Assembly (NCBI GenBank): GCA_902780505.1
Contig: CACZFN010000023.1
Span: 1-59,282, forward strand
Source: an uncultured Ruminococcus sp.
GTDB lineage: Bacteria > Bacillota > Clostridia > Oscillospirales > Ruminococcaceae
DNA length: 59,282 nt
Direction: 5' to 3'
Part shown: in pieces, positions 5,038 to 56,265 of the stretch
Layout: each line of letters starts with the position of its first letter
Position numbering within the stretch: the first letter of the stretch is position 1
The notes under the pieces: model-generated
Seen by the model: only the letters and a program-made list of their open reading frames with translations
Databases searched by the model: none
Told to the model about the DNA's origin: nothing
Position numbers and translations under genes: made by a program

Positions 5038-5220
5038 TAAGCGCAGGCGCAATATAGAAGTTTTATATCCGACACTTCTGCTGATATCTCGGCAGAAGTG
5101 CCTTCTTGTTACTTGAGTTTAGCGCCTGCTAAAATAAAAAAGAAGAAAGAATAAATAAGAAATAAAAACGACGGTATCGCCTTCGGCGATAAATTATTAA
5201 AATTCGTCCGCAAAGCGGAC
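5038..5220. repeat. Dispersed ~180-bp repeat, copy 2 (inverted relative to copy 1)
   Basis: Near-identical to the reverse complement of 1-181, including the GCAGAAGTG hairpin (about 5070-5100), the A/G-rich run and the terminal CGTCCGC/GCGGAC hairpin. It lies immediately downstream of the isomerase gene. Copies 1 and 2 bracket a ~4.85-kb segment in inverted orientation, which could recombine to invert the segment. Confidence 0.85.
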
Positions 5221-5232
5221 ACCTTGTTTATT

Positions 5233-5339: not shown

Positions 5340-5675
5340 TTATACTATCAGCTTATCATTTATTATCTTTCCAAGCACTGCATCAATGCTGCCGCTTACC
5401 TCAAATACACGCACGTTTTTTTCTATCAGATATGCTGCCGCACCTGCACCTATCCTTTCAACAAGCAATGCGTCGCAGTCGGATAACAATTCTATTATCC
5501 TGTCAAACCTTGTTACGTCATGTCCGAGGGTATGCTGACACGCTGCCACTGCATCACGGAGTTCCTTATATTCATAACCGCTGTCACTTGTATCATAGAT
5601 CCTGAAAAACTTAGCGTGCCCGAAATGCTCGTTGACAGTCTGCCCGTCAGAAGTTGCAATAGCTATCCTTGCCAT
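5340..5675 (-). CDS. NifX/NafY-like (dinitrogenase Fe-Mo cofactor domain) protein 1
   Basis: 111 aa from ATG 5675, which has AAGGGG eight bases upstream; a GTG nine bases earlier is also open. The whole protein is one DiNase FeMo-co domain: opening MARIAIATSDG, then NEHFGHAKFF, a LLVERIGAGAAAYL segment and a short C-terminus. Such proteins bind nitrogenase-type iron-sulfur cofactor precursors. It is the last gene of the nif-like operon (12 bp after the NifK-like gene) and probably carries or inserts the cluster made by the NifB-like protein. The CxxH-type histidine in NEHFGHA is conserved with the second copy at 10268. Confidence 0.85.
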   Translation of the reverse strand: MARIAIATSDGQTVNEHFGHAKFFRIYDTSDSGYEYKELRDAVAACQHTLGHDVTRFDRIIELLSDCDALLVERIGAGAAAYLIEKNVRVFEVSGSIDAVLGKIINDKLIV

Positions 5676-5687
5676 ACGGCTCACCCC

Positions 5688-7028
5688 TTATTTATAGGTG
5701 GCAAGGGCGGTGTTGTAGATATCTTCTATGACTCTGAGCCCGCCTGTGTAGCCGACATAGTTTGTGGTAAGCACTATCCTGTAAGGTGTCGGACAGGCTA
5801 TGGATAAAAAGTCAGCATCGATCTCAGCGGCAAGCTCCTTGTCCCAGCCGCTTCCCATTATAAGTCCCCTGCCCTTGTGCGAAAGCCCTCTTATAACATC
5901 CTGCATTGCACCTGCATCGGGATCAAAATAAACAGGTATCTCACGCTTGTCAGAAGTTGCTTTTATGTCAGCTTCTATCTTTTCCTGATATTTAGCGGGA
6001 ACGTTGTCAACTATAAACTGTTCCTTCGGCACAAGCCCCGTTTCGTGAAGCAGGAACCTTGTAAGCCCCGCAACATACCCCGCGTCATGCAGAATGTGCA
6101 CATATGACGGCAGGCCGTACCTGAATTCAAGCAGGAATGTCGCTAAGTTGTCAAGCTCCTCATAGTACGCCTTTTCCTCCTCAGCGATAAACGCACGTGC
6201 TTTCTTTTCGTCTATCTCTGCACCCTGCGAAAGTGCAAATTCAAGCACGCCGTTCAAAAACCTTGTCGTTTCGTTGGCACCTATCGGAAGGTATCCAAAC
6301 TGATAATAAGGCTGTGAATACCTTCTTTGCAGGTTTTTCACTATCGGCTCACCGTACCACGGCGAAACAAATACATTGAAGTTTGCCTTCGGTATGCTCT
6401 GCCATTCCTTTACCCCGCCCGAATGCGGCCCGAAAAGGATATTCACTTTAAGCCCAAGCCCTGAAAGCAGGCGCTTGTATTCTTTCAGGTTGCCTTTCCA
6501 GAACTGATCCTGATACGGAATGGACGCTATAAGGTTTACAAGATTTTTGTCACTCCTTGCTTCGTTATCATCTTCAAAGCGGCTTACATACTGGTCAATT
6601 ATAGCATTTACCACTGCCGAATGTGACACATAGTTATTTGACTTGAATCCGGGCGTTTCAACGTGAACTATCGGCCTGTCTTCCTCGTATAAAAATTCAT
6701 CAGTGATACTTGCGACATCATCACCTACAATGCCCGCAGTACAGCCTGTGACTACTACCTGCAAGTCAGTATCAAGCACCTTGTAGGTGTTTCTGATTAT
6801 ATTCCTCAGCCTGTCTGTGCCGCCGAAAACGACCTCACGCTCACTGAAATTGGTACATGGCGCCGTTTCGCCGCCCGCATAGCCCGCCGAACGTTCAAAG
6901 AAGCCCTTTATCATGACACCGCACCCCGGGCCTGAATGAAGTATCGGCACAGCCCTCGGTATCGCCACCACAGTCTGCAATGCGCCGATAGCGCAGGTGT
7001 AGCGTTCCTGTTCTATTAATCCTGCCAT
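5688..7028 (-). CDS. Nitrogenase-like beta subunit (NifK-like; candidate MarK)
   Basis: 446 aa. Three cysteines match the NifK P-cluster ligands: Cys12 (YTCAIGA), Cys36 (GPGCG) and Cys96 (TGCTAGIVGDD); the spacings of 24 and 60 closely match Cys70/95/153 of A. vinelandii NifK. The protein is shorter than NifK (about 520 aa) because it lacks the N-terminal extension. It should pair with the NifD-like protein at 7042 and take electrons from the NifH-like protein. Gene order B-H-D-K and sulfur-metabolism neighbours point to a methylthio-alkane reductase rather than N2 fixation; other group-IV nitrogenase-like functions remain possible. Start ATG with AAGGAG. Confidence 0.85.
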   Translation of the reverse strand: MAGLIEQERYTCAIGALQTVVAIPRAVPILHSGPGCGVMIKGFFERSAGYAGGETAPCTNFSEREVVFGGTDRLRNIIRNTYKVLDTDLQVVVTGCTAGIVGDDVASITDEFLYEEDRPIVHVETPGFKSNNYVSHSAVVNAIIDQYVSRFEDDNEARSDKNLVNLIASIPYQDQFWKGNLKEYKRLLSGLGLKVNILFGPHSGGVKEWQSIPKANFNVFVSPWYGEPIVKNLQRRYSQPYYQFGYLPIGANETTRFLNGVLEFALSQGAEIDEKKARAFIAEEEKAYYEELDNLATFLLEFRYGLPSYVHILHDAGYVAGLTRFLLHETGLVPKEQFIVDNVPAKYQEKIEADIKATSDKREIPVYFDPDAGAMQDVIRGLSHKGRGLIMGSGWDKELAAEIDADFLSIACPTPYRIVLTTNYVGYTGGLRVIEDIYNTALATYK

Positions 7029-7041
7029 ATCTGTATCTCCT

Positions 7042-8511
7042 TTACTTGCCTAAGAATGTATAAGGCTCCTGCTCAAGCCACCATTTTGTATAAGGGTTGG
7101 TCGAATGTTTTGAAAGGTTTTTTACAAACTCGTCGTTTTCAATGGTTTCAAGTATCCTCTCACCGTATGCAACAAGCCCTTCATAACCCATTCCGAAGTG
7201 CTCGTCACCTATAAGAAGCGAAGGTATGCCGAGCTTTGCACCCCAGAGTGTCATTCCGCCGTGGCGTGCAAGCAGTATGTCGGGCTTTATACGGTTTAAC
7301 ACATTCACAAGTTCAAATTCCTGCTTGTTGCACACGTTGTAGTTGGGAACATCTCCGTAATCCTCGACCGTATGTTTAAGCGTGTCGGCGCGTTCGTCAC
7401 CGTTGTCATATTCGGGATCGTGGTGGAATATCGCTGCGCCCTGCGGTTCCATACCAAGCTCTTTTAACAATGCAAGCAGTGAATGCCCGTGTGATGCGCC
7501 TGCGGTGACATATGCAGTCCTGCCTTTAAGCTTCTCACGAAGTGCTTCTATCTTAGGAAGGTATTCCTTTTTCTTTCGTGCAAGGAATCTTTCGACTTCC
7601 TCCTCTTTGTGGATATGCTGACCGAGTTCCCTGAACCAGCGGTCTGTCTGCGCTATGCCGTATGGGGGCGAGTTCCTTATCTCAGGTACACCGAACCCCT
7701 GTTCAAGTGCCGCACCGAGGTATGAACCAAGCGTCGAGCAGGCCTGAACGGTAAGCGCCGCTTCTGATGAATAGCTTAAACTGTCAACAGTTGCAAACGG
7801 GGTAATATAGTTAGGCTCATAGCCGAATTCACCGAACCATTCCCTGAAAATATCACTTCCCCAGAAGTTTATCACATTTATGATATTGCGCTTTTGCCTT
7901 GCGGGTTTTATTATCTTTCTTGCAATGCCGTGATAGCCCGCATCAAAGCCGGACGTCCACATCTTTGAACGGAACCCTTCGCAGAATACCGCCACAACAG
8001 GTATGCCGAGCTCTCTCTGTGCGGCATTGGTTATGCTTTCTATATCATCACCTATAATGCCCGCCGCACAGGTGGTAATAACAAATATCGCACTCGGTTT
8101 TGCCCGCTTATGTACTTCACGTATAGCCGCTTCAAGCTTTTTGCCGCCGCCGTATATCGTGTCCTTTTCTTCAAGGTTTGTCGAAAAGATCTTTCTCTGT
8201 GTAGGGTGTTCAAGCTGTCTTAAATACGCATTTACCCTGTATGTGAACGCAAACTCGTGCAGGCAGGTAGAACACCCGACAGGCCCGTGTGAGATAATTG
8301 CGGCATCCTGAATAAGCGTCAGCGTACAAGCCGCATTTGAAGTGCCGCACCCAAGGCACTGTGAAAACGAACGGTTTTTGTCCTTCAGCTTGCCGCCGCA
8401 GCCCGAACAGGCTGAAACAAGTTCCTTCGCTGTACCCTGAAACCCCGTTATCGAGCCGAGTCTTATCTCCCTTATCTCGACCTCGGGGATCTGTAGATTT
8501 ACTTTACCCAT
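7042..8511 (-). CDS. Nitrogenase-like alpha subunit (NifD-like; candidate MarD)
   Basis: 489 aa. P-cluster-type cysteines are Cys55, Cys80 (GPVGC) and Cys148 (TTCAAGIIGDD), spaced as in NifD (62/88/154). Cys258 in a QACSTLGSYL segment aligns with the cofactor-binding Cys275 region of NifD, and His438 in GDEHFGMGYEG is a candidate for the second cofactor ligand. Extra cysteines near the N-terminus (35, 38, 52) are unusual. Presence of both P-cluster and cofactor cysteines separates it from BchN/ChlN-type reductases. Operon partner of the K-like gene (13 bp). The active cofactor is probably an all-iron cluster derived from NifB-co; this is inference. Start ATG with AAGGAG. Confidence 0.85.
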   Translation of the reverse strand: MGKVNLQIPEVEIREIRLGSITGFQGTAKELVSACSGCGGKLKDKNRSFSQCLGCGTSNAACTLTLIQDAAIISHGPVGCSTCLHEFAFTYRVNAYLRQLEHPTQRKIFSTNLEEKDTIYGGGKKLEAAIREVHKRAKPSAIFVITTCAAGIIGDDIESITNAAQRELGIPVVAVFCEGFRSKMWTSGFDAGYHGIARKIIKPARQKRNIINVINFWGSDIFREWFGEFGYEPNYITPFATVDSLSYSSEAALTVQACSTLGSYLGAALEQGFGVPEIRNSPPYGIAQTDRWFRELGQHIHKEEEVERFLARKKKEYLPKIEALREKLKGRTAYVTAGASHGHSLLALLKELGMEPQGAAIFHHDPEYDNGDERADTLKHTVEDYGDVPNYNVCNKQEFELVNVLNRIKPDILLARHGGMTLWGAKLGIPSLLIGDEHFGMGYEGLVAYGERILETIENDEFVKNLSKHSTNPYTKWWLEQEPYTFLGK

Positions 8512-8522
8512 ATGTTTTCTCC

Positions 8523-9407
<885 letters not shown>

Positions 9408-9410
9408 TTA

Positions 9411-10292
9411 TCAACCGTGTGAAAACGTGCTCTCTCTTGAAAGCCTTTTCAGGTCTATATATATCTGCTGTGAATAATCTGCCCCTCCGGGGATACCGAC
9501 TGCATCAGCCCTGCACCTCTGGCAGTGACGGAACACGTCGATATAGCGTGATGCTTTAAGTATTGCCCTTTCTATCTCGTAGCAGGTCGGCTCCCGGCAG
9601 TCTTTGAGCCTGTGCTGCGGTATCAGCGGGATAATATTGTATATGCTCGCCCCCGCTTCCGCCACTGTCATTGCTATCTTTTCGATATGCTCTGTGTTTA
9701 TATCGGGTACAAGCACTGTGTTCACCTTTACAGTAAGCCCTGCGTCGCTGACTTTTTTAATGCCCTCTATCTGCTGTGATATCAGTATCTCTGCGGCTTC
9801 TGTCCCGGTGTAATGCTTCCCGTGCCAGTATATGCCCGCATTCAGTTTTGCTTCTATTTCAGGATCTACCGCATTTACCGTGACGGTAAGCGAATCTATC
9901 CCGACATCAATGACCTCCTGTGCCTTTTCACTGAGCAGCAAACCGTTTGTGCTCATGCATTTCACAAGGTCAGGAAATCTTTCTTTTATAAGCCTGAATG
10001 TTTCAAGCGCATACGGGCTTGCAAGTGTGTCCCCGGGGCCAGCAATGCCCGCTACGTGTATCTCGGGACAGACTTTAAGCGCACGCTCAATAACATCTAT
10101 CGCCTCCTGCGGCTTTATCACCGTTGCCGCAACTCCCGGGCGCTGCTCATGTGCGTTGATACTCCTTTCGCAGAAGTTGCATTCTATATTGCACCCGGGG
10201 CTTATTGGCAGATGTATCCGCCCGTTGTTGCTTTTCGCGCCCCTTGCAAAACACGGGTGCTTTGTTGTCAGTTCTTCGTATGATATTGCCAT
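9411..10292 (-). CDS. NifB-like radical SAM protein (candidate MarB)
   Basis: 293 aa from ATG 10292, chosen because GGGAGGTGG lies six to seven bases upstream; an ATG five codons earlier is also open. Radical SAM CX3CX2C ligands are Cys34, Cys38 and Cys41. Other NifB hallmarks are HPC near residue 12, the AGPGD motif, STNGL, TVTVNA, and a C-terminal CQRCRADAVG. The C-terminal NifX domain of many NifB proteins is missing and may be supplied by the separate NifX-like genes. NifB fuses two [4Fe-4S] clusters with a carbide to form NifB-co (L-cluster), which the D/K-like enzyme could use directly since no NifEN is present. The start overlaps the end of the upstream NifX-like gene by 25 bp. Confidence 0.9.
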   Translation of the reverse strand: MAISYEELTTKHPCFARGAKSNNGRIHLPISPGCNIECNFCERSINAHEQRPGVAATVIKPQEAIDVIERALKVCPEIHVAGIAGPGDTLASPYALETFRLIKERFPDLVKCMSTNGLLLSEKAQEVIDVGIDSLTVTVNAVDPEIEAKLNAGIYWHGKHYTGTEAAEILISQQIEGIKKVSDAGLTVKVNTVLVPDINTEHIEKIAMTVAEAGASIYNIIPLIPQHRLKDCREPTCYEIERAILKASRYIDVFRHCQRCRADAVGIPGGADYSQQIYIDLKRLSRESTFSHG

Positions 10293-10639
10293 TTGTCCAC
10301 CTCCCATGTTCTGTCCTCAAGCAGCAGACAGAGTGCCTGTTCTATTTCAAGCGGTATCTGATAAAGCGCTGTGCCCTTCTGTCTGATAAAAGCGGCTGCG
10401 CCCTGCCCCGCCCTTTGTGCAACAATAGCACTGACATCACCAATCACATTCATAACCGCTTCAAAGCCCGCAGCTTCGTGTGTCCCGCCCTTGCATGGCG
10501 GCGGCACATCTCTTGCTTCAAGAAAGCTGTAATCCTCGTTTTCTGTATCAAGGCTGTAGATATAAAACTTTCCTGCACGCCCGAAGTGCTCGTTTACCTG
10601 CACACCGTCATTGCTTGCAAATGCTATTTTGTAGGTCAT
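10268..10639 (-). CDS. NifX/NafY-like (dinitrogenase Fe-Mo cofactor domain) protein 2
   Basis: 123 aa from ATG 10639 (AAAGGAAAG seven bases upstream; longer upstream reading overlaps the preceding gene). Same single-domain fold as the protein at 5340: opening MTYKIAFASNDG, NEHFGRAGKFYIY, then AIVAQRAGQGAAAFI. It carries an extra PPPC segment mid-protein. It lies between the MccA-like and NifB-like genes, so it probably handles or stores the NifB product. Two such proteins, one before B and one after K, bracket the core genes. Confidence 0.85.
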   Translation of the reverse strand: MTYKIAFASNDGVQVNEHFGRAGKFYIYSLDTENEDYSFLEARDVPPPCKGGTHEAAGFEAVMNVIGDVSAIVAQRAGQGAAAFIRQKGTALYQIPLEIEQALCLLLEDRTWEVDKWQYHTKN

Positions 10640-10652
10640 ATGCATCTTTCCT

Positions 10653-11561
10653 TTAAAATAAACCTGTGCTGAAATATCTGTCGCCCCTGTCAGGGAACAC
10701 AACAACGATATTTCCGCGCTCTGTCTTCCTTGAAAGCTTCAGCGCCGCAGCCATAGCCGCCCCTGATGACGAACCGACTATTATGCCCTCCTTTGCGGCA
10801 AGCTCTCTTACCGTTGCAAAGGCTTCTTCGTCTGTCACCTTTACGACCGTATCAACAAGCTTTATGTCCATAGTATCGGGAATAAAATCATTGCCGATAC
10901 CCTCGATATTATAGTCAAAGTGCTCTCCCCCGCCTATCGTGGAGCCTTCGGGATCTGCAAGCACGCCTTTGATGTCGGGGTTTTGCTCTTTGAGGTACCT
11001 TACTATCCCCGTGTAAGTTCCGCCGCTTCCCGCACCTGCAACAAGGTGTGTGATCTTCTCTCCCATATCCTCCCATATCTCTTTGCCTGTGGTTTCATAA
11101 TGGGCAAGCGGGTTTGCGGGGTTTTCAAACTGGTCAAGGGATATAGCACCCTCTATCTGAGCTTTGAGTTCTTCAGCCTTTCTGACAGCGCCGAGCATAC
11201 CCTCCTCTCTCGGGGTGTTTATTATCTCCGCCCCGAGCGCACGCATAAGCGCCTGCTTCTCCCGGGAGAATTTCGTAGGTACGGTAAATATCACTCTGTA
11301 CCCTTTGCCAAGTGCCGCAAAGGCTATGCCAAGCCCTGTATTGCCTGCTGTAGCTTCGATTATCGTGCCGCCTGGTTTAAGCTTTCCCTCACGTTCGGCG
11401 GCGGCTATCATATATTCGCCTATCCTGTCTTTGACAGAACCGGAGGGATTGTACATTTCAAGTTTAGCATAAATATTTACGTCGGGGGAACCCCCCATAT
11501 TGTTTATCCTTACTATCGGTGTATTGCCGATAAGCTTATGCATAGATGTGTAAACGCTCAT
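10653..11561 (-). CDS. mccA: Cysteine synthase / OAS-dependent cystathionine beta-synthase (MccA-like)
   Basis: 302 aa, PLP fold-type II. Lys44 in NPSGSVKDR is the expected Schiff-base lysine; the substrate loop EATAGNTG and the PLP phosphate loop GSGGTYTG are intact. Features such as KFSREKQALM and DQFENPANP are more typical of the MccA/CBS-like branch than of classic CysK. With the adjacent MccB-like enzyme this would run reverse transsulfuration, turning homocysteine and O-acetylserine into cysteine; direct sulfide use for cysteine synthesis cannot be excluded. Five bp downstream of the MccB-like gene and 13 bp upstream of the NifX-like gene, so co-transcribed with the nif-like genes. Confidence 0.85.
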   Translation of the reverse strand: MSVYTSMHKLIGNTPIVRINNMGGSPDVNIYAKLEMYNPSGSVKDRIGEYMIAAAEREGKLKPGGTIIEATAGNTGLGIAFAALGKGYRVIFTVPTKFSREKQALMRALGAEIINTPREEGMLGAVRKAEELKAQIEGAISLDQFENPANPLAHYETTGKEIWEDMGEKITHLVAGAGSGGTYTGIVRYLKEQNPDIKGVLADPEGSTIGGGEHFDYNIEGIGNDFIPDTMDIKLVDTVVKVTDEEAFATVRELAAKEGIIVGSSSGAAMAAALKLSRKTERGNIVVVFPDRGDRYFSTGLF

Positions 11562-11566
11562 TTTTA

Positions 11567-12724
11567 TCAGACCTCACTTTGTGCTATTGCGTTGTCAAGG
11601 TCAGCAAGGATATCGGTTATGTTCTCAATTCCGATCGAAAGCCTTATAAGCCCGTCTGTTATGCCGACCTTTTTTCTTATTTCCTCAGGGATAGATGCGT
11701 GTGTCATACTTGACGGGTGACACACAAGCGACTCTACCCCGCCTAAGCTTTCAGCAAGGGTGATAAGCGTAAGGCTTTCAAAGAACTTGTTTATATCATA
11801 GTTTTCTTTAAGTTCAAAGGATATCATCACGCCGCCGTTTTTAGCCTGCCGCCTGTTTACCTTATAGCCCCTGTCGGTTTCAAGCCCCGGGTAGTGAACA
11901 CTCTTTACAGCGGGGTGTGTGCTTAAAAACTTTGCAGCTGTCAGGGCATTCTGTACGTGCCTGTCAAGCCTTACGCCGAGCGTCTTTATACCTCTTATAA
12001 GCAGAAAGCTGTCAAACGGTGCAAGCACGCCGCCTGTTGAGTTCTGAATAAAGGCAAGCTTCTGTGCAAGCTCATCGGTGCTTACTACCGCAAGCCCTGC
12101 CACAACATCACTGTGCCCGCCTAAGTATTTTGTCGCCGAGTGAACGACAATGTCAGCACCAAGTTCAAGCGGTCTTTGAATATAAGGTGTCATGAACGTA
12201 TTGTCAACTATCACTAAAAGCCCGTGTCTGTGTGCAATATCTGCCACGGCACGAATATCCGTCACCGTCATAAGCGGGTTTGCGGGGCTTTCTATGAGCA
12301 CAGCTTTAACATCGTCAGTAATGTCAGCTTCAAAGCTTTCGGGGTTTTCGGTATCTGAAATAGTGTAGTTTATATTAAAATGGTCAAACACCTGATTTAA
12401 CAGCCTGAACGTGCCGCCGTAAACATTTGATGAAATAAGCACCCTGTCGCCCGAATGCAGCAGCGAAAACACCGCAGTTTCAGCCGCAAGCCCCGAAGCA
12501 AACGCAAAGCCCGCACAACCGCCCTCAAGGTCACTTATCAGCGCTTCAAGCGCTTCCCTTGTGGGGTTGCCTGTGCGGGAGTATTCGTACCCGCGCATTT
12601 TGCCAAGACCGTCCTGCTTGAATGTCGAGGTCTGGTAAATGGGAATGTTCACAGCCCCCGTTCTTTCGTCTATCGGTATGCCGCCGTGTATAAGTGTTGT
12701 TTCTATATTTTTATATACAGCCAT
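11567..12724 (-). CDS. mccB: Cystathionine gamma-lyase/gamma-synthase family enzyme (MccB/MetB-like)
   Basis: 385 aa, PLP fold-type I, Cys/Met metabolism family. Lys199 in SATKYLGGHSD binds PLP; YEYSRTGNPTR and the VDNTFMTP aspartate are conserved. Members include cystathionine gamma-lyase, gamma-synthase and homocysteine gamma-lyase; pairing with an MccA-like gene favours the lyase, giving cysteine from cystathionine. It is the first gene of the operon that continues into the nitrogenase-like genes, read from the promoter at 12783-12811. This places sulfur amino acid interconversion and the nif-like system under one control. Confidence 0.85.
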   Translation of the reverse strand: MAVYKNIETTLIHGGIPIDERTGAVNIPIYQTSTFKQDGLGKMRGYEYSRTGNPTREALEALISDLEGGCAGFAFASGLAAETAVFSLLHSGDRVLISSNVYGGTFRLLNQVFDHFNINYTISDTENPESFEADITDDVKAVLIESPANPLMTVTDIRAVADIAHRHGLLVIVDNTFMTPYIQRPLELGADIVVHSATKYLGGHSDVVAGLAVVSTDELAQKLAFIQNSTGGVLAPFDSFLLIRGIKTLGVRLDRHVQNALTAAKFLSTHPAVKSVHYPGLETDRGYKVNRRQAKNGGVMISFELKENYDINKFFESLTLITLAESLGGVESLVCHPSSMTHASIPEEIRKKVGITDGLIRLSIGIENITDILADLDNAIAQSEV

Positions 12725-12782: not shown

Positions 12783-12811
12783 ATTCTATCAAATCATAGG
12801 GGTTTAGTCAA
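12783..12811 (-). promoter_or_regulatory. Promoter of the mccBA-nif-like operon
   Basis: Minus strand: -35 TTGACT (12806-12811), 17-bp spacer, -10 TAGAAT (12783-12788). The first TGATAACGTTGTCA operator lies 10 bp upstream of the -35. Confidence 0.75.
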
Positions 12812-12821
12812 GATTGTATTG

Positions 12822-13027
12822 TGATAACGTTGTCAGCTGTGTCGTGATTTTCAGCCCGTTTGCCTGTCCGTCCCGCAAAACAGACCTGTCCTAAGTGAAC
12901 AGATTATTAAGCGCAGATTAAATCGCTCTGATTTATGATAACGTTGTCAGTGCAAACCCAGCGCAACTCAACAAGTAAGCATTAACTTACCAATACGCTT
13001 TTCGGCATTTTTGTGATAACGTTGTCA
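12822..13027. promoter_or_regulatory. Three LacI-type operators, TGATAACGTTGTCA
   Basis: Three identical 14-bp near-palindromes lie at 12822-12835, 12936-12949 and 13014-13027 (centres about 114 and 78 bp apart). The central AACGTT and the overall form match LacI-family operators. They lie between the sulfur/nif-like operon and the LacI-family gene. A different palindrome, TGAACGCGTTCT, follows at about 13056. Multiple spaced sites would allow looping. Confidence 0.8.
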
Positions 13028-13561: not shown

Positions 13562-14626
13562 ATGTCATTAAAAGAGATAGCAAGGCTTACAGGTGTTTCG
13601 GTATCAACTGTCGGGCGTATACTCAGTGATCCCTCACGCAAGTGTGCAAACGAGGAAACGCGCAGAAAAGTCCTTGAAGCCGCAAGAGAGATAAACTATA
13701 TACCCAATGCCGCCGCACGAAGCCTGAAATCAGGCGGGAACCAGCAGGAAAAGATATACAGCATAGATATCCTGCTAACCCGTTTTGCACAGGAAGCCGC
13801 TGATCCGTTTTATGATGAACTTCTGATGCTTGCGGAAAAAGAACTCAGAAACAAAGGATGTATAGTTTCAAACGTATGGCATAAAGCCGAGTTTTCGGAT
13901 GAAAAGGCATCCGATATCGAAATGATCGTCGCTTCACTTTACAAAGACAGGGCAAGGCGTTCAGACGGGCTTATGATAATAGGCAAGTGCACCGCAAAGG
14001 CTGTGCGTGTGCTTAAAAAGTATGAAAAGAACATAATCACTATAAGCCGCAACTCCACGAATTATGAAGTTGACGAAGTGCTCTGCGACGGAAGTAAGAT
14101 AGCATCAGATGCTGTAAGCTATCTTGCAAGGCTCGGGCATACCAAAATAGCATATGTCGGCGACTGCCACAACGAAGCACGTTTCACAGGCTATCAGTCG
14201 GCAATGGTGAGGGGGCATCTCTCGCCGGATATCGACTATATTTTTGACACCGCCCCTAACGAAGAAAACGGGCTGCTTGCTTTTGAACATTTCTCAAAGC
14301 TTTCCGATCCGCCTACAGGCATATACTGCGCCAATGATATCCTTGCTATAGGTATGCTCAAAGCACTCAGCCGCAGAAGGCAGAGGGGCTACTGCCCTTC
14401 CGTCATAAGCTGTGACGATATCGACGAAGCACAGTATACCACACCTATGCTCACAACTATATCCCTGCCCAAAAACGAAATGGTGCGCTTTGCACTTATG
14501 CTTCTTCTTGACAGGATAAGCGGCGGGCATAAGATAGTTTCCCGCATTGAGCTTGAAGGCACACTTATAATACGTGAAAGCTGCCGCCCGCTCAGGGATA
14601 TGTCAGAACCCGAATACTATATATAA
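13562..14626 (+). CDS. LacI-family transcriptional regulator, probably of the sulfur/nif-like genes
   Basis: 354 aa. N-terminal LacI helix-turn-helix (1-25, SLKEIARLTGVSVSTVGRIL) and hinge helix (about 48-58, NAAARSLKSG), then a periplasmic-binding-protein-like effector domain (60-330) with YVGD and ICANDILAIG elements. Regulators of this family usually sense sugars or nucleotides. Here it is flanked on both sides by arrays of a perfect LacI-type palindrome lying beside the promoters of the mccBA-nif-like operon and of the O-acetylhomoserine sulfhydrylase gene, so it probably controls both. The effector is unknown; a purine or sulfur metabolite would be reasonable guesses only. Confidence 0.9.
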   Translation: MSLKEIARLTGVSVSTVGRILSDPSRKCANEETRRKVLEAAREINYIPNAAARSLKSGGNQQEKIYSIDILLTRFAQEAADPFYDELLMLAEKELRNKGCIVSNVWHKAEFSDEKASDIEMIVASLYKDRARRSDGLMIIGKCTAKAVRVLKKYEKNIITISRNSTNYEVDEVLCDGSKIASDAVSYLARLGHTKIAYVGDCHNEARFTGYQSAMVRGHLSPDIDYIFDTAPNEENGLLAFEHFSKLSDPPTGIYCANDILAIGMLKALSRRRQRGYCPSVISCDDIDEAQYTTPMLTTISLPKNEMVRFALMLLLDRISGGHKIVSRIELEGTLIIRESCRPLRDMSEPEYYI

Positions 14627-14673: not shown

Positions 14674-14881
14674 TGATAGCGTTATCTTATATCGCACCCC
14701 CTGCGGCTGTGAATTTATCATAGCATGACGCCTGTAACAGCGCAGTTACGCGGAAAAGCTTTAAGATAACGTTATCATATTTTACATTTGTGCGCCAAAA
14801 TACGTTCTTCACCCTGCGCTTATTTGCATCATTTTTGCCTTCACGGCTCTGTCTTTTTCGCATTCTGTGCTAACGTTATCA
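14674..14881. promoter_or_regulatory. Three LacI-type operators upstream of the sulfhydrylase gene
   Basis: TGATAGCGTTATCT (14674-14687), AGATAACGTTATCA (14764-14777) and TGCTAACGTTATCA (14868-14881): variants of the site found three times on the other side of the lacI-type gene. The last lies 10 bp upstream of the -35 hexamer, the same relative position as at the mccBA promoter. Otherwise this 339-bp gap holds only a small lacI 3' hairpin-like stretch. Confidence 0.8.
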
Positions 14882-14920: not shown

Positions 14921-14965
14921 TAGCATAACGCAAGACGTTAGTACACACGAAAGGAATTGATACAA

Positions 14966-16255
14966 ATGGCAGACTACAGATTTGACACAAAAAAGATAAA
15001 GGCAGGCTACAGCCCGCTCGACAACAATCAGGCTATATCCCCGCCGATATACCAGACAGCCGCCTATGATTTCAAAAGCACAGAACACGCACAGAACCTT
15101 TTCACCTACAAGGAAGCAGGCTACCTCTATACAAGGGTAGGCAACCCGACGGTAAACTATTTTGCTGAGCGCGTAAAAGCCCTTGACGGCGCAAAGAACG
15201 CCGTTGCAGTAGGTTCGGGCATGGCGGCAATATCCTATACGCTTTTAAACCTTGCCGCAAAGGGCGGAACTATACTCGCATCTCCTTATGTTTACGGCGG
15301 CACGATAGATGCGTTTGACAGGCTGTTCCCCGAACTTGGCGTGAGCATAAAGATAACCGACGCCGTTTTGGAACCCGAAAGGCTTGAAAAGGAGATAACC
15401 GATGATGTAAAGGGCATATTTGTCGAGTCACTTTCAAACCCGAATGCTTATCTGCTTGATATCGACGCTATATCGGAAGCGGCACACCGTCACGGTGTAC
15501 CTGTTGTAGTTGACAACACTGTAGCCACACCTTACCTTTACAGACCGCTTGAACACGGTGCGGATATAGTTGTGTATTCCGCAACAAAAGGGCTTACAGG
15601 CCACGGCAACATTATAGCGGGGCTTATACTTGACAACGGAAATATGTCCTATTATACAAAAGAACGCTACCCGCAGTTTTACGAGCCTGTGGTAATGCTC
15701 GGCGGCAAGGCGGCTAAAGATATATTTGCAGATAACTTTTTTATCTTCCGCGCCATACTTGTTTATCTGAACCTCTTAGGTGCGGCACTTTCCCCGCAGG
15801 ACGCATATCTCGGCATAATAGGGCTTGAAACGCTCTCAGAACGTGTATCAAAGCAGTCAAAAAATGCCGCAGAGATAGCCGCCTACCTTGAAAACTCACC
15901 CGCAGTCGAATGGGTAAGACACCCGAGCCTTGACAGCTATAAGTTCAAAGCCCTTGCAAATAAGCACCTTACAAACGGCGGCGGAGGGGTACTGTCGTTC
16001 GGGATAAAAGGGACCGCAAAGCAGGAGGAGGATTTCCTCAACAACATCAGGCTTTTCCACTATCACGTAAACCTGGGCGATGCAAGGTCGCTTATAGTTG
16101 ATTCGCCCAACACCACACATTCAGAGCTTACCGATGAAGAAAAACGCCTTGCCGATATCCCCGCAAACCTTATCCGCATTTCCGCAGGCCTTGAAGATGC
16201 AAAAGATCTTATCGAGGATCTCGAACAGGCATTCAAAGCCGCAGGGCTGTTATGA
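14966..16255 (+). CDS. O-acetylhomoserine (thiol)-lyase / sulfhydrylase
   Basis: 429 aa from ATG 14966 (AAAGGA seven bases upstream; a TTG three codons earlier is disfavoured). PLP-dependent Cys/Met metabolism family with the longer insert (FFIFRAILVYLNLLGAALSP) typical of O-acetylhomoserine sulfhydrylases. Lys208 in SATKGLTGHGN binds PLP; YLYTRVGNPT and VDNTVATPY are conserved. The enzyme joins O-acetylhomoserine with sulfide (homocysteine) or methanethiol (methionine). With the nitrogenase-like system it would capture methanethiol released from methylthio-alkanes, matching the Mar pathway. Single-gene unit closed by the terminator at 16268. Confidence 0.9.
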   Translation: MADYRFDTKKIKAGYSPLDNNQAISPPIYQTAAYDFKSTEHAQNLFTYKEAGYLYTRVGNPTVNYFAERVKALDGAKNAVAVGSGMAAISYTLLNLAAKGGTILASPYVYGGTIDAFDRLFPELGVSIKITDAVLEPERLEKEITDDVKGIFVESLSNPNAYLLDIDAISEAAHRHGVPVVVDNTVATPYLYRPLEHGADIVVYSATKGLTGHGNIIAGLILDNGNMSYYTKERYPQFYEPVVMLGGKAAKDIFADNFFIFRAILVYLNLLGAALSPQDAYLGIIGLETLSERVSKQSKNAAEIAAYLENSPAVEWVRHPSLDSYKFKALANKHLTNGGGGVLSFGIKGTAKQEEDFLNNIRLFHYHVNLGDARSLIVDSPNTTHSELTDEEKRLADIPANLIRISAGLEDAKDLIEDLEQAFKAAGLL

Positions 16256-54552: not shown

Positions 54553-56265
54553 ATGATCGAGATATCGAGAAAAGCTTACTGCGATATGTATGGTCCGACA
54601 GTTGGCGACAGGGTGCGCTTGGGCGACACTTCTCTTATTGCAGAAGTGGAAAAAGATTTGACAGTTCATGGCGATGAAGCAAAGTTCGGTGGAGGAAAAT
54701 CTCTCCGTGACGGCATGGGGCAATCCTGCAAAGCCACTGACAAGGAGTGCCTTGACACTGTTATCACAAACGCTCTTATCATCGACAGCACAGGCATCAT
54801 AAAGGCTGACGTTGGCATAAAGGACGGCAGGATAGCAGGAATAGGCAAAGCAGGCAACCCCGACATCATGAATGGCGTTGACAAAAACATGATAATAGGC
54901 GCTTCCACGGAAGCTATCGCAGGCGAGGGACTTATCCTCACCGCCGGCGGACTTGACACGCACATTCATTTTATCTCTCCAACTCAGGTGAGAACAGCCC
55001 TTTACAGCGGAATCACCACCATGATAGGCGGTGGTACAGGTCCTGCCGACGGCACCAATGCCACCACCTGTACACCCGGCGAGTTCAATATCCACAGAAT
55101 GTTGGAAGCCTCCGAAGACCTGCCAATGAATTTCGGCTATCTCTGCAAGGGAAATTCAAGCGACATCACAACTCTCGAGGAGCAGATAAAGGCAGGCTGT
55201 ATAGGCTTGAAGATACACGAGGACTGGGGCTCTACCCCTGACGTTATCGACCACGCACTTACTGTTGCGGATATGTATGACGTTCAGGCGGCTATCCACA
55301 CCGACACTCTTAACGAGGGCGGATTTGTTGAAGATACCGTCAATGCTTTCAAGGGCAGGACTATCCACACTTATCACACAGAGGGTGCAGGCGGCGGACA
55401 CGCTCCTGACATTATCAGAGCGGCAGCGTTCCCGAATGTTCTCCCTTCCTCAACGAACCCTACAATGCCTTACACCGCAAACACTCTTGACGAACATCTG
55501 GATATGCTCATGGTGTGTCATCACCTTGACAAGAACGTACCAGAGGACATTGCTTTTGCGGATTCAAGGATACGTCCTGAAACTATCGCCGCAGAGGACG
55601 TTTTGCACGATATGGGAATATTCTCAATGATGAGTTCCGACTCTCAGGCAATGGGACGTGTAGGCGAAGTCATCACACGAACATGGCAGACCGCTGACAA
55701 AATGAAGAAACAACGTGGCGCACTCCCTGAGGACAGCCAGCGAAACGACAATTTCAGAATAAAACGCTACATTTCAAAATACACTATCAACCCTGCTATA
55801 ACCCACGGCGTATCAGAATATGTAGGCTCAGTGGAAGTTGGCAAGGTGGCAGACCTTGTTCTTTGGAATCCTGCATTTTTCGGAGCAAAGCCTGACATGA
55901 TAATAAAGGGCGGATTTATTTTCGCATCAAAAATGGGCGACGCAAACGCTTCTATCCCTACCCCTCAGCCTGTGTGTTACACAGAAATGTTCGGTGGTCA
56001 CGGGCTTGCCCTTTCAAGCACCTGTATCACGTTCGTATCAAAATACGCCTACGAGGACGGCATAAAGGAGAAGCTTGGTCTTAAAAGGCAGGTGCTTCCT
56101 GTGAAGAACTGCCGAAACATCTCAAAGGCTGATATGGTATACAACAACGTCTGCGGTGATATAAGAGTAGACCCTGAGACCTACACTGTCACAGTTGACG
56201 GCGAAGTTATTACCTGCGAGCCTTTTGACGAGCTTGCATTGGCACAGCGTTACTTTATGTTCTAA
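54553..56265 (+). CDS. ureC: Urease alpha (catalytic) subunit
   Basis: 570 aa, full length. Ni ligands His137, His139 (THIHF), carbamylated Lys220 (GLKIHEDW), His249 (HTDTLNE), His275 (HTYHTEG) and Asp363 (SSDSQAMGR), plus flap Cys322/His323 (VCHHL) are all in place (numbering three above Klebsiella UreC). It hydrolyses urea to ammonia and carbamate in the cytoplasm as part of (UreABC)3. Of 24 proline codons, 17 are CCT, unlike genes in the left block. Catalysis needs UreE, F, G and D, all encoded downstream. Confidence 0.98.

Follow-up and report, generated by a model that had tools for sequence, protein, structure and literature searches.

We analysed the 59,282-nucleotide contig CACZFN010000023.1 of an uncultured Ruminococcus sp. 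(the window), in which eight closely packed genes on the minus strand (12724-5340) join a nitrogenase-like reductase to transsulfuration-type genes. The first two encode pyridoxal phosphate (PLP) enzymes, namely an MccB-like protein of the cystathionine gamma-lyase or homocysteine lyase type (11567..12724) and a CysK/MccA-like protein, either a cysteine synthase or an O-acetylserine-dependent cystathionine beta-synthase (10653..11561). They are followed by a NifX-like cofactor-binding protein (10268..10645; PF02579, 55.9 bits), a MarB-like, NifB-type radical S-adenosylmethionine (SAM) protein (9411..10307), a NifH-like reductase (8523..9380), a NifD/MarD-like catalytic subunit of group IV-A type (D; 7042..8511), a NifK/MarK-like subunit (K; 5688..7028), and a second NifX-like protein (5340..5684; PF02579, 77.1 bits). 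The open reading frame of the first NifX-like protein begins at 10705, and a start near 10645 appears likely by eye. A sequence-only reading of this DNA had placed the NifB-, NifH-, D-, and K-like genes in one operon with MccB- and MccA-like genes, and this arrangement holds, with family scores far above chance. To it we add the two NifX-like genes, the lack of a NifX domain in the NifB-like protein, a LacI-family gene with three exact operators, and the recurrence of the operator at the neighboring sulfhydrylase gene.

The D and K subunits match MarDK of Rhodospirillum rubrum (PDB 9fmg and 9d9u) far better than any solved nitrogenase in sequence, and D is also closest to MarD by fold. D is 42% identical to MarD and K is 41% identical to MarK; K scores 378 bits against the MarK chain 9d9u_C, while the next solved match reaches 61.7 bits. 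Cysteines of P-cluster type had been proposed at D positions 55, 80, and 148 and at K positions 12, 36, and 96, together with a candidate cofactor cysteine, D Cys258. All of them align with the corresponding cysteines of MarD and MarK, and those of D are invariant in a 35-protein alignment. The cofactor ligands Cys270 and Arg428-His429 (Mar numbering), the latter on an extended loop, correspond to C258, R416, and H417, and their equivalents are kept in 56 of 56 window-type rows. The equivalents of Mar W195, F199, and H375 are kept in the 35-protein alignment. Nitrogenase Gln191 and His195 are absent, with Trp185 and Phe189 in the window D, and the cofactor histidine sits on the Mar-type loop instead of at the His442-type position; these residue roles in Mar and nitrogenase are taken from PMC12552129. 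Two active-site positions are unlike Mar: MarD His194 is replaced by Met184 and MarD Gln74 by Thr63. Among the 56 window-type rows, position 194 is occupied by Ile (28), Met (19), or Val (9), and position 74 by Gln (26), Thr (19), Met (7), or Val (3), with one gap. The passages of PMC12552129 drawn on here name His194 and Gln74 near the cluster and do not state that they define the Mar family. One frame of the sample is broken: the D gene of L066 (933-2495), from a metagenome-assembled genome, is split into two pieces.

The phylogeny of D and K that the sequence-only reading had called for places the window clade as sister to the MarDK clade, not within it. In the D tree (79 of 82 rows, with R. 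albus-group loci thinned beforehand), the window falls in a 55-row clade (100/98) that is sister, at 98/95, to a 6-row clade (100/100) uniting R. rubrum MarD with five D proteins from Clostridia. For K (66 of 78 rows), the tree likewise sets 44 window-type rows (100/100) beside seven R. rubrum-type rows (100/100), joined at 96/89. In the approximately unbiased (AU) test, a direct grouping of R. albus-type D with R. rubrum-type D was rejected (p-AU 0.006), whereas trees that unite R. rubrum-type D and the entire gut half of the window clade were not (p-AU 0.44); the sister relation of the two clades is therefore tentative. The R. rubrum-type D copies in other Clostridia are 55-57% identical to R. 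rubrum MarD, compared with 42% for the window D, and both types can occur together: L052 carries a D 85% identical to that of the window and a D 57% identical to R. rubrum MarD, and in L080 the window-type D and K adjoin a K that shares 79% identity with R. rubrum MarK. Judged by these identities and by the two changed active-site positions, the window D is no simple orthologue of MarD.

The window clade also contains D proteins of Paenibacillus and a D of Heliophilum (L071, 9001-10482), which is followed by K and nifH. PMC9147875 puts Heliophilum NflDK1 with NfaDK of Endomicrobium proavitum in subgroup IV-A, proposed as a nitrogenase, and the D and K of L071 fit its description of NflDK1. Through this Heliophilum member we equate the window clade with group IV-A (Nfa); the link to E. 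proavitum NfaDK is that of PMC9147875, as our trees comprise neither E. proavitum nor R. capsulatus nor BchN/CfbD sequences. Two further sets of D/K pairs were seen among the relatives. One is a group IV clade about 40% identical to the window D (L103 8846-11607, L104 9179-11940, L105 8041-10901, L094 108-2880, and L096 16004-18830); the residue ahead of the pocket His is Trp, not Phe, in the four rows covering this position, and SsuB/SsuC-like transporter genes adjoin the pairs of L094, L103, and L104, making the clade another candidate organosulfur reductase. The other comprises divergent pairs, 31-32% identical to the window D (L108 2481-5363, L078 2709-5549, and L082 5575-8436), in which Arg-Asp or Arg-Glu replaces the Arg-His of the cofactor loop; the pair of Chlorohelix (L108) has NifX and sulfhydrylase genes in its vicinity.

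The NifB-like protein is a stand-alone radical SAM protein without a NifX domain. It aligns with the solved NifB chains 7jma and 7bi7 at 280 bits, keeping HPCF, CxxxCxxC, AGPGD, and the C-terminal CxxC, and scores 265 bits with the NifB model, below the cut-off of 344. The NifH-like reductase exceeds its cut-off (TIGR01287, 461 against 394 bits), and both of its cluster cysteines, noted before, are present (GCAGRG and DVVCGGF). NifEN, reported as absent, was not found here either: the sole other PF00148 matches in the draft genome, which is 98.6% complete, are four divergent genes on contig C12, three scoring 46-56 bits against NifE (cut-off 505) and one without a match at E 1e-8. These four D/K-like genes belong to a second nitrogenase-like set (L100 4384-17878), which also has two NifH-like genes; three of the D/K-like proteins give weak matches to NifE or BchB profiles. 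On one side of the set are HydE and a HydF-like gene and on the other HypF/HypD/HypE-like hydrogenase maturases, the HydF-like and Hyp genes being named by eye.

The two PLP enzymes are less sharply defined. For the MccB-like protein, the best NCBIfam match is PRK07671 (541 bits, cut-off 594); the cystathionine gamma-synthase model gives 533 bits (cut-off 642), 8 bits less than the lyase model, and the nearest solved chains are 4l0o and then 7d7o. The CysK/MccA-like protein is above cut-off for TIGR01136 (362 bits) and TIGR01139 (352 bits), and it reaches 351 of the 510 bits required by the cystathionine beta-synthase model, covering 307 of 457 model positions; solved chains named cysteine synthase and cystathionine beta-synthase score alike. 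The reverse transsulfuration previously suggested to carry sulfur on to cysteine thus fits the MccB-like gene, but profiles and solved chains separate neither lyase from synthase nor CysK from MccA. The adjoining O-acetylhomoserine sulfhydrylase of MetY type (14957..16255, plus strand; TIGR01326, 450 bits, cut-off 495), the expected acceptor of a released thiol, is present as described, but on the opposite strand, and it bears the operator it has in common with the operon. Between the two lies the LacI-family gene (13562..14626, plus strand), with NCBIfam LacI-family matches of up to 144 bits, below the cut-offs. L020, L027, and L029 keep the order sulfhydrylase-LacI-MccB, but there the LacI and sulfhydrylase genes, opposite in strand to the operon in the window, are on its strand.

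Three exact copies of the palindrome TGAYAACGTTRTCA lie 5' of the MccB-like gene (12822-12835, 12936-12949, and 13014-13027), and two copies with one mismatch lie 5' of the sulfhydrylase gene (14764-14777 and 14868-14881). These five matches compare with an average of 0.04 in shuffled sequence. In the alignment of the regions upstream of the R. albus-group operons, TGAYAACGTTRTCA appears as a conserved palindrome beside a conserved TTGAC. This TTGAC belongs to a sigma-70-like promoter (TTGACT-17-TAGAAT, 12783..12811, minus strand; 10 of 12 consensus matches), whose -10 region is conserved in part; promoter-like sites number 21 in 10 kb against 14.7 expected. At the other end, a terminator-like hairpin of seven pairs with a T-rich tail lies 3' of the last gene (5205..5221, minus strand), a consensus match of a kind found 14 times in 10 kb against 9.3 expected.

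Across the 2.82-Mb genome, the three copies at the MccB-like gene are the only exact ones. Sites with at most one mismatch number 12, compared with three for the reversed pattern, and consist of the five in the window, a pair on contig C21 (C21:6012 and C21:6117), and five single sites. The C21 pair directly precedes an SsuA-, SsuC-, and SsuB-like operon, which runs divergently from the gene of a LysR regulator. Of 32 related loci, the window counted, 31 have an operator with at most one mismatch within 450 bp 5' of the MccB gene (L051 lacks it, and L021 has too little upstream sequence to enter the count); of 19, again with the window, 16 have one within 450 bp 5' of the sulfhydrylase gene. 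An exact site is present in seven of seven genomes of the genus. In L051, the locus without the operator, the transporter genes, sulfhydrylase, LacI gene, operon (its second NifX unmatched), and LysR gene are contiguous. As recognized from its sequence, one operator links the operon, the O-acetylhomoserine sulfhydrylase, and the SsuABC-type transporter of contig C21. The sites are observed directly; their reader is likely the LacI-family protein next door. A homologue of this protein is encoded in 29 of the 35 R. albus-group loci, and the remaining six end before its expected place.

The host, a rumen bacterium with cellulose-degrading Ruminococcus among its relatives, is a Ruminococcus of the R. 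albus group, and its closest counterparts are Ruminococcus genomes, many from the ruminant gut and including R. albus 8, KH2T6, and AR67, with D proteins 93-96% identical. The related loci are the best 80 of 123 relatives, so the sample is biased to close ones; in the family sample, a D match at E 1e-60 was found in 11 of 197 genomes. The full set of eight genes is present in 29 of the 35 R. albus-group loci, and the remaining six, four of which are contigs shorter than 8 kb, lack one to five genes. The cultured strain R. albus 8 (L029) is among the carriers of the operon. Purifying selection on D, K, and NifH is strong. For D, the proportion of nonsynonymous differences (pN) across six loci is 0.05-0.09 and that of synonymous differences (pS) is 0.70-0.80, with the synonymous sites saturated; the high D identity between species therefore reflects strong constraint, and the recent transfer among Ruminococcus species that it had brought to mind was set aside.

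Outside the R. albus group the sample includes 47 window-type loci, of which 35 were scanned with Rfam and 40 were evaluated for neighbor genes within 9 kb of D, after removal of six near-duplicates or fragments and of L066, which has no full-length D. S-box (SAM) riboswitches stand directly 5' of D in L073 and L096, and in L069 and L077 they head operons that contain metNIQ. In L094 a T-box stands 5' of D, with an apparent cysteine specifier UGC read by eye from the alignment. Recognized elements thus head the D genes in five of the 35 scanned loci, all five clostridial; the S-boxes of L074 and L087 do not head the D genes. Near D, the 40 loci contain a sulfhydrylase (22), MetN, MetI, and MetQ-like genes together (15), SsuB-like genes (15), CysK (14), MccB (12), or PatB (3), and 32 of the 40 have at least one of sulfhydrylase, MccB, CysK, MetNIQ, or PatB. 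The host itself has four strong PF01053 genes (MccB/sulfhydrylase family, above 380 bits) in 2.82 Mb, which corresponds to a chance baseline of about 3% per 20 kb for this family if other genomes are alike. Given the SAM riboswitches, the T-box, and the operator common to the sulfhydrylase, we argue that the clade serves sulfur metabolism.

The sulfur metabolism of the host points the same way. The NIR_SIR domain, which the search did detect in 11 of the 14 control genomes, was not found in the host, and this makes a sulfite reductase unlikely; for a host unable to reduce sulfite, an enzyme that yields a thiol would be more useful than one that yields sulfite. A shunt from methylthioadenosine to methylthioethanol was also considered and set aside, because no kinase or aldolase partner was seen by eye in 16 kb around MtnA; the two class II aldolase genes of the genome adjoin genes that resemble sugar-utilization genes, again by eye.

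We consider it probable that the operon encodes a system for scavenging sulfur, which feeds methionine and cysteine and has at its core a nitrogenase-like reductase from the group IV-A clade adjoining Mar, with ligands for a P-cluster and an [Fe8S9C]-type cofactor. In such a system, the SsuABC-type transporter would import an organosulfur compound, NifB would make the carbide cluster, and the two NifX-like proteins, going by their families, would carry it. NifH would hand ATP-gated electrons via the putative P-cluster of DK to a putative cluster held, according to the alignment, by D Cys258 and His417, where a C-S bond would be cut reductively and a small thiol, probably methanethiol, released. 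The O-acetylhomoserine sulfhydrylase would trap this thiol, giving methionine or homocysteine, and the MccB/CysK-like pair could move the sulfur on to cysteine, the whole set presumably being controlled by the LacI-family protein through the TGAYAACGTTRTCA operators.

Several observations weigh against this assignment. Met184 and Thr63 depart from Mar at the active site, and the PLP enzymes of the operon are not the only ones of their kind, as the host has three CysK copies above cut-off, two besides that of the operon, and two further strong PF01053 genes. The operator copies at the sulfhydrylase and the transporter each have one mismatch, and of the 12 sites in the genome, five lie away from all of these sulfur genes. 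The operator is missing at both genes in L051 and at the sulfhydrylase in L023 and L052, and none of these genes lies within 1.5 kb of the sole exact copy in G113. Regulators of the LacI family frequently respond to sugars. The Rfam scan found no riboswitch or T-box on the window operon (the one S-box of the whole host genome is on contig C4), and 30 of the 35 scanned loci outside the group have none at the head of the D genes. At the thresholds used, eight of the 40 relatives lack any listed sulfur gene within 9 kb; five of these are shorter than 15 kb and three (L082, L096, and L108) are longer. MtnA is present in the host with no salvage partner recognized beside it. Finally, the NifV search lacks a positive control: the best host match scores 66.8 bits against a cut-off of 462.9, and none of the 14 control genomes has a protein over the cut-off either.

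How close the enzyme stands to Mar bears directly on its substrate. The sequence-only reading had named a candidate methylthio-alkane reductase, and what stands of this is a sulfur operon whose enzyme resembles Mar, has the P-cluster and cofactor ligands, is closest to MarDK, and belongs to a clade around which sulfur genes recur; membership in the MarDK clade and the His/Gln pair do not. A strict methylthio-alkane reductase, converting dimethyl sulfide, ethyl methyl sulfide, or 2-(methylthio)ethanol into methanethiol and methane, ethane, or ethylene, has a real but somewhat less than even chance. Mar is the closest characterized enzyme, its ligands, Arg-His loop, and W195/F199/H375 are kept, the sulfhydrylase bears the common operator, the genome has MtnA, and the AU test tolerates a union of R. 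rubrum-type D and the entire gut half of the window clade. Yet other Clostridia possess R. rubrum-type D proteins of higher identity, L052 has both types, His194 and Gln74 are changed, and importers under the common operator or adjoining the genes make little sense for volatile substrates. Since Met184 and Thr63 occur together with placement beside the Mar clade, the methylthio-alkane substrate is a lead only; the same residues, taken with an importer under the common operator, suggest a substrate different from that of R. rubrum Mar. More speculatively, the IV-A clade, including the proposed group IV nitrogenases, might form a distinct family of C-S reductases that act on an imported, charged organosulfur compound instead of a volatile thioether, in the rumen possibly a methylthio-sulfonate such as methyl-coenzyme M shed by methanogens and taken up by the SsuABC-type transporter; we regard this as possible but doubtful.

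The transporter also brings to mind a sulfonate reductase like Isr of Rhodobacter capsulatus, which works with SsuCAB (PMC11423573) and would release sulfite. An SsuA-family transporter under the common operator agrees with this, as do the SsuB-like genes that 15 of the 40 relatives have within 9 kb of D, but PMC11423573 describes an IsrD with one P-cluster cysteine instead of three and no cofactor cysteine, and an IsrB nearer to BciD than to NifB, whereas the window has all three D cysteines, Cys258, and a NifB-type protein. In addition, sulfite would be a dead end in a host without a NIR_SIR domain unless the enzyme reduced it further. On the cysteines, the NifB type, and the sulfite reductase not found, we reject identity with Isr and judge a sulfonate reductase of this kind improbable. 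Even less probable, indeed very unlikely, is N2 fixation by a group IV nitrogenase, the role proposed for E. proavitum and for Heliophilum fasciatum NflDK1. Its basis is the Heliophilum D beside nifH (L071) in the window clade, together with the placement of NflDK1 with E. proavitum NfaDK, which is reported to incorporate 15N2 (PMC9147875). Against it, NifEN was not found and no NifV was over the cut-off, Gln191 and His195 are absent with the cofactor histidine on a Mar-type loop, many genes of the clade sit with sulfur genes, some of them behind riboswitches, and R. rubrum Mar has these ligands yet no N2-reducing activity (PMC12552129). A true nitrogenase was thus rejected on its residues and on the NifEN and NifV not found; the context as a whole (operator, riboswitches and T-box, neighbor genes, and no sulfite reductase, NifV, or NifEN) favours sulfur over N2.

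The scavenging system proposed here differs from each known relative. Compared with MarBHDK of R. rubrum, the window enzyme belongs to a separate clade, and its operon adds two NifX-like and the MccB/CysK genes, a LacI-type operator, and an SsuABC-type transporter under the common operator. Among the IV-A (Nfa/NflDK1) proteins, its D groups with those of Heliophilum and Paenibacillus in sequence and with that of Endomicrobium by description only. According to PMC9147875, these proteins are proposed as nitrogenases, likely N2-fixing in Endomicrobium and Heliophilum, or are left without a function; the Ruminococcus version lies in a transsulfuration operon. IsrBHDK of Rhodobacter capsulatus is likewise described as a group IV BHDK system of sulfur assimilation with an SsuABC transporter, and it differs in a D with one P-cluster cysteine and no cofactor cysteine, a BciD-like radical SAM protein, and a product, sulfite, without evident use in this host. 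The IV-A MarHDK-like genes near type I mlp clusters described in PMC10418091 belong to the same nitrogenase group by its naming and have sulfur and methionine genes nearby, whereas the Ruminococcus operon, the part of the genome searched for this, not the rest, has no Mlp/corrinoid methyltransferase gene. A sulfur role of IV-A genes is not new: version 4 of that 2023 preprint proposes methionine salvage or methyl sulfide use for those near mlp clusters. The link to SAM riboswitches may already be in print as well, as "SAM riboswitch" occurs twice in version 3 and not in the text of version 4. Our searches of the open-licence literature turned up nothing on the operator regulon, the Ruminococcus operon, or the conflict of the clade with a nitrogenase role.

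The relatives of the window enzyme, some of them proposed as unusual nitrogenases, look like sulfur enzymes too, and a sulfur role against N2 fixation for IV-A can be tested in the cultured strain R. albus 8. If the enzyme is indeed Mar-like, rumen Ruminococcus would have a methanogen-independent route to methanethiol and small hydrocarbons. The clade also provides a natural set of active-site variants on one cluster scaffold, with His in the R. rubrum type and Ile, Met, or Val in the window type, which is useful for asking what governs substrate choice in nitrogenase-type enzymes.

Apart from the sulfur operon, the window contains at 34407-56265 an ammonium transporter fused to P-II, peptide-type ABC transporter proteins, an adenine deaminase-like protein, and a urease alpha subunit. 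Antisense to the urease alpha-subunit gene (54553-56265) is an Rfam match to 5_ureB_sRNA (54703-54992), which may just mirror conserved coding sequence.

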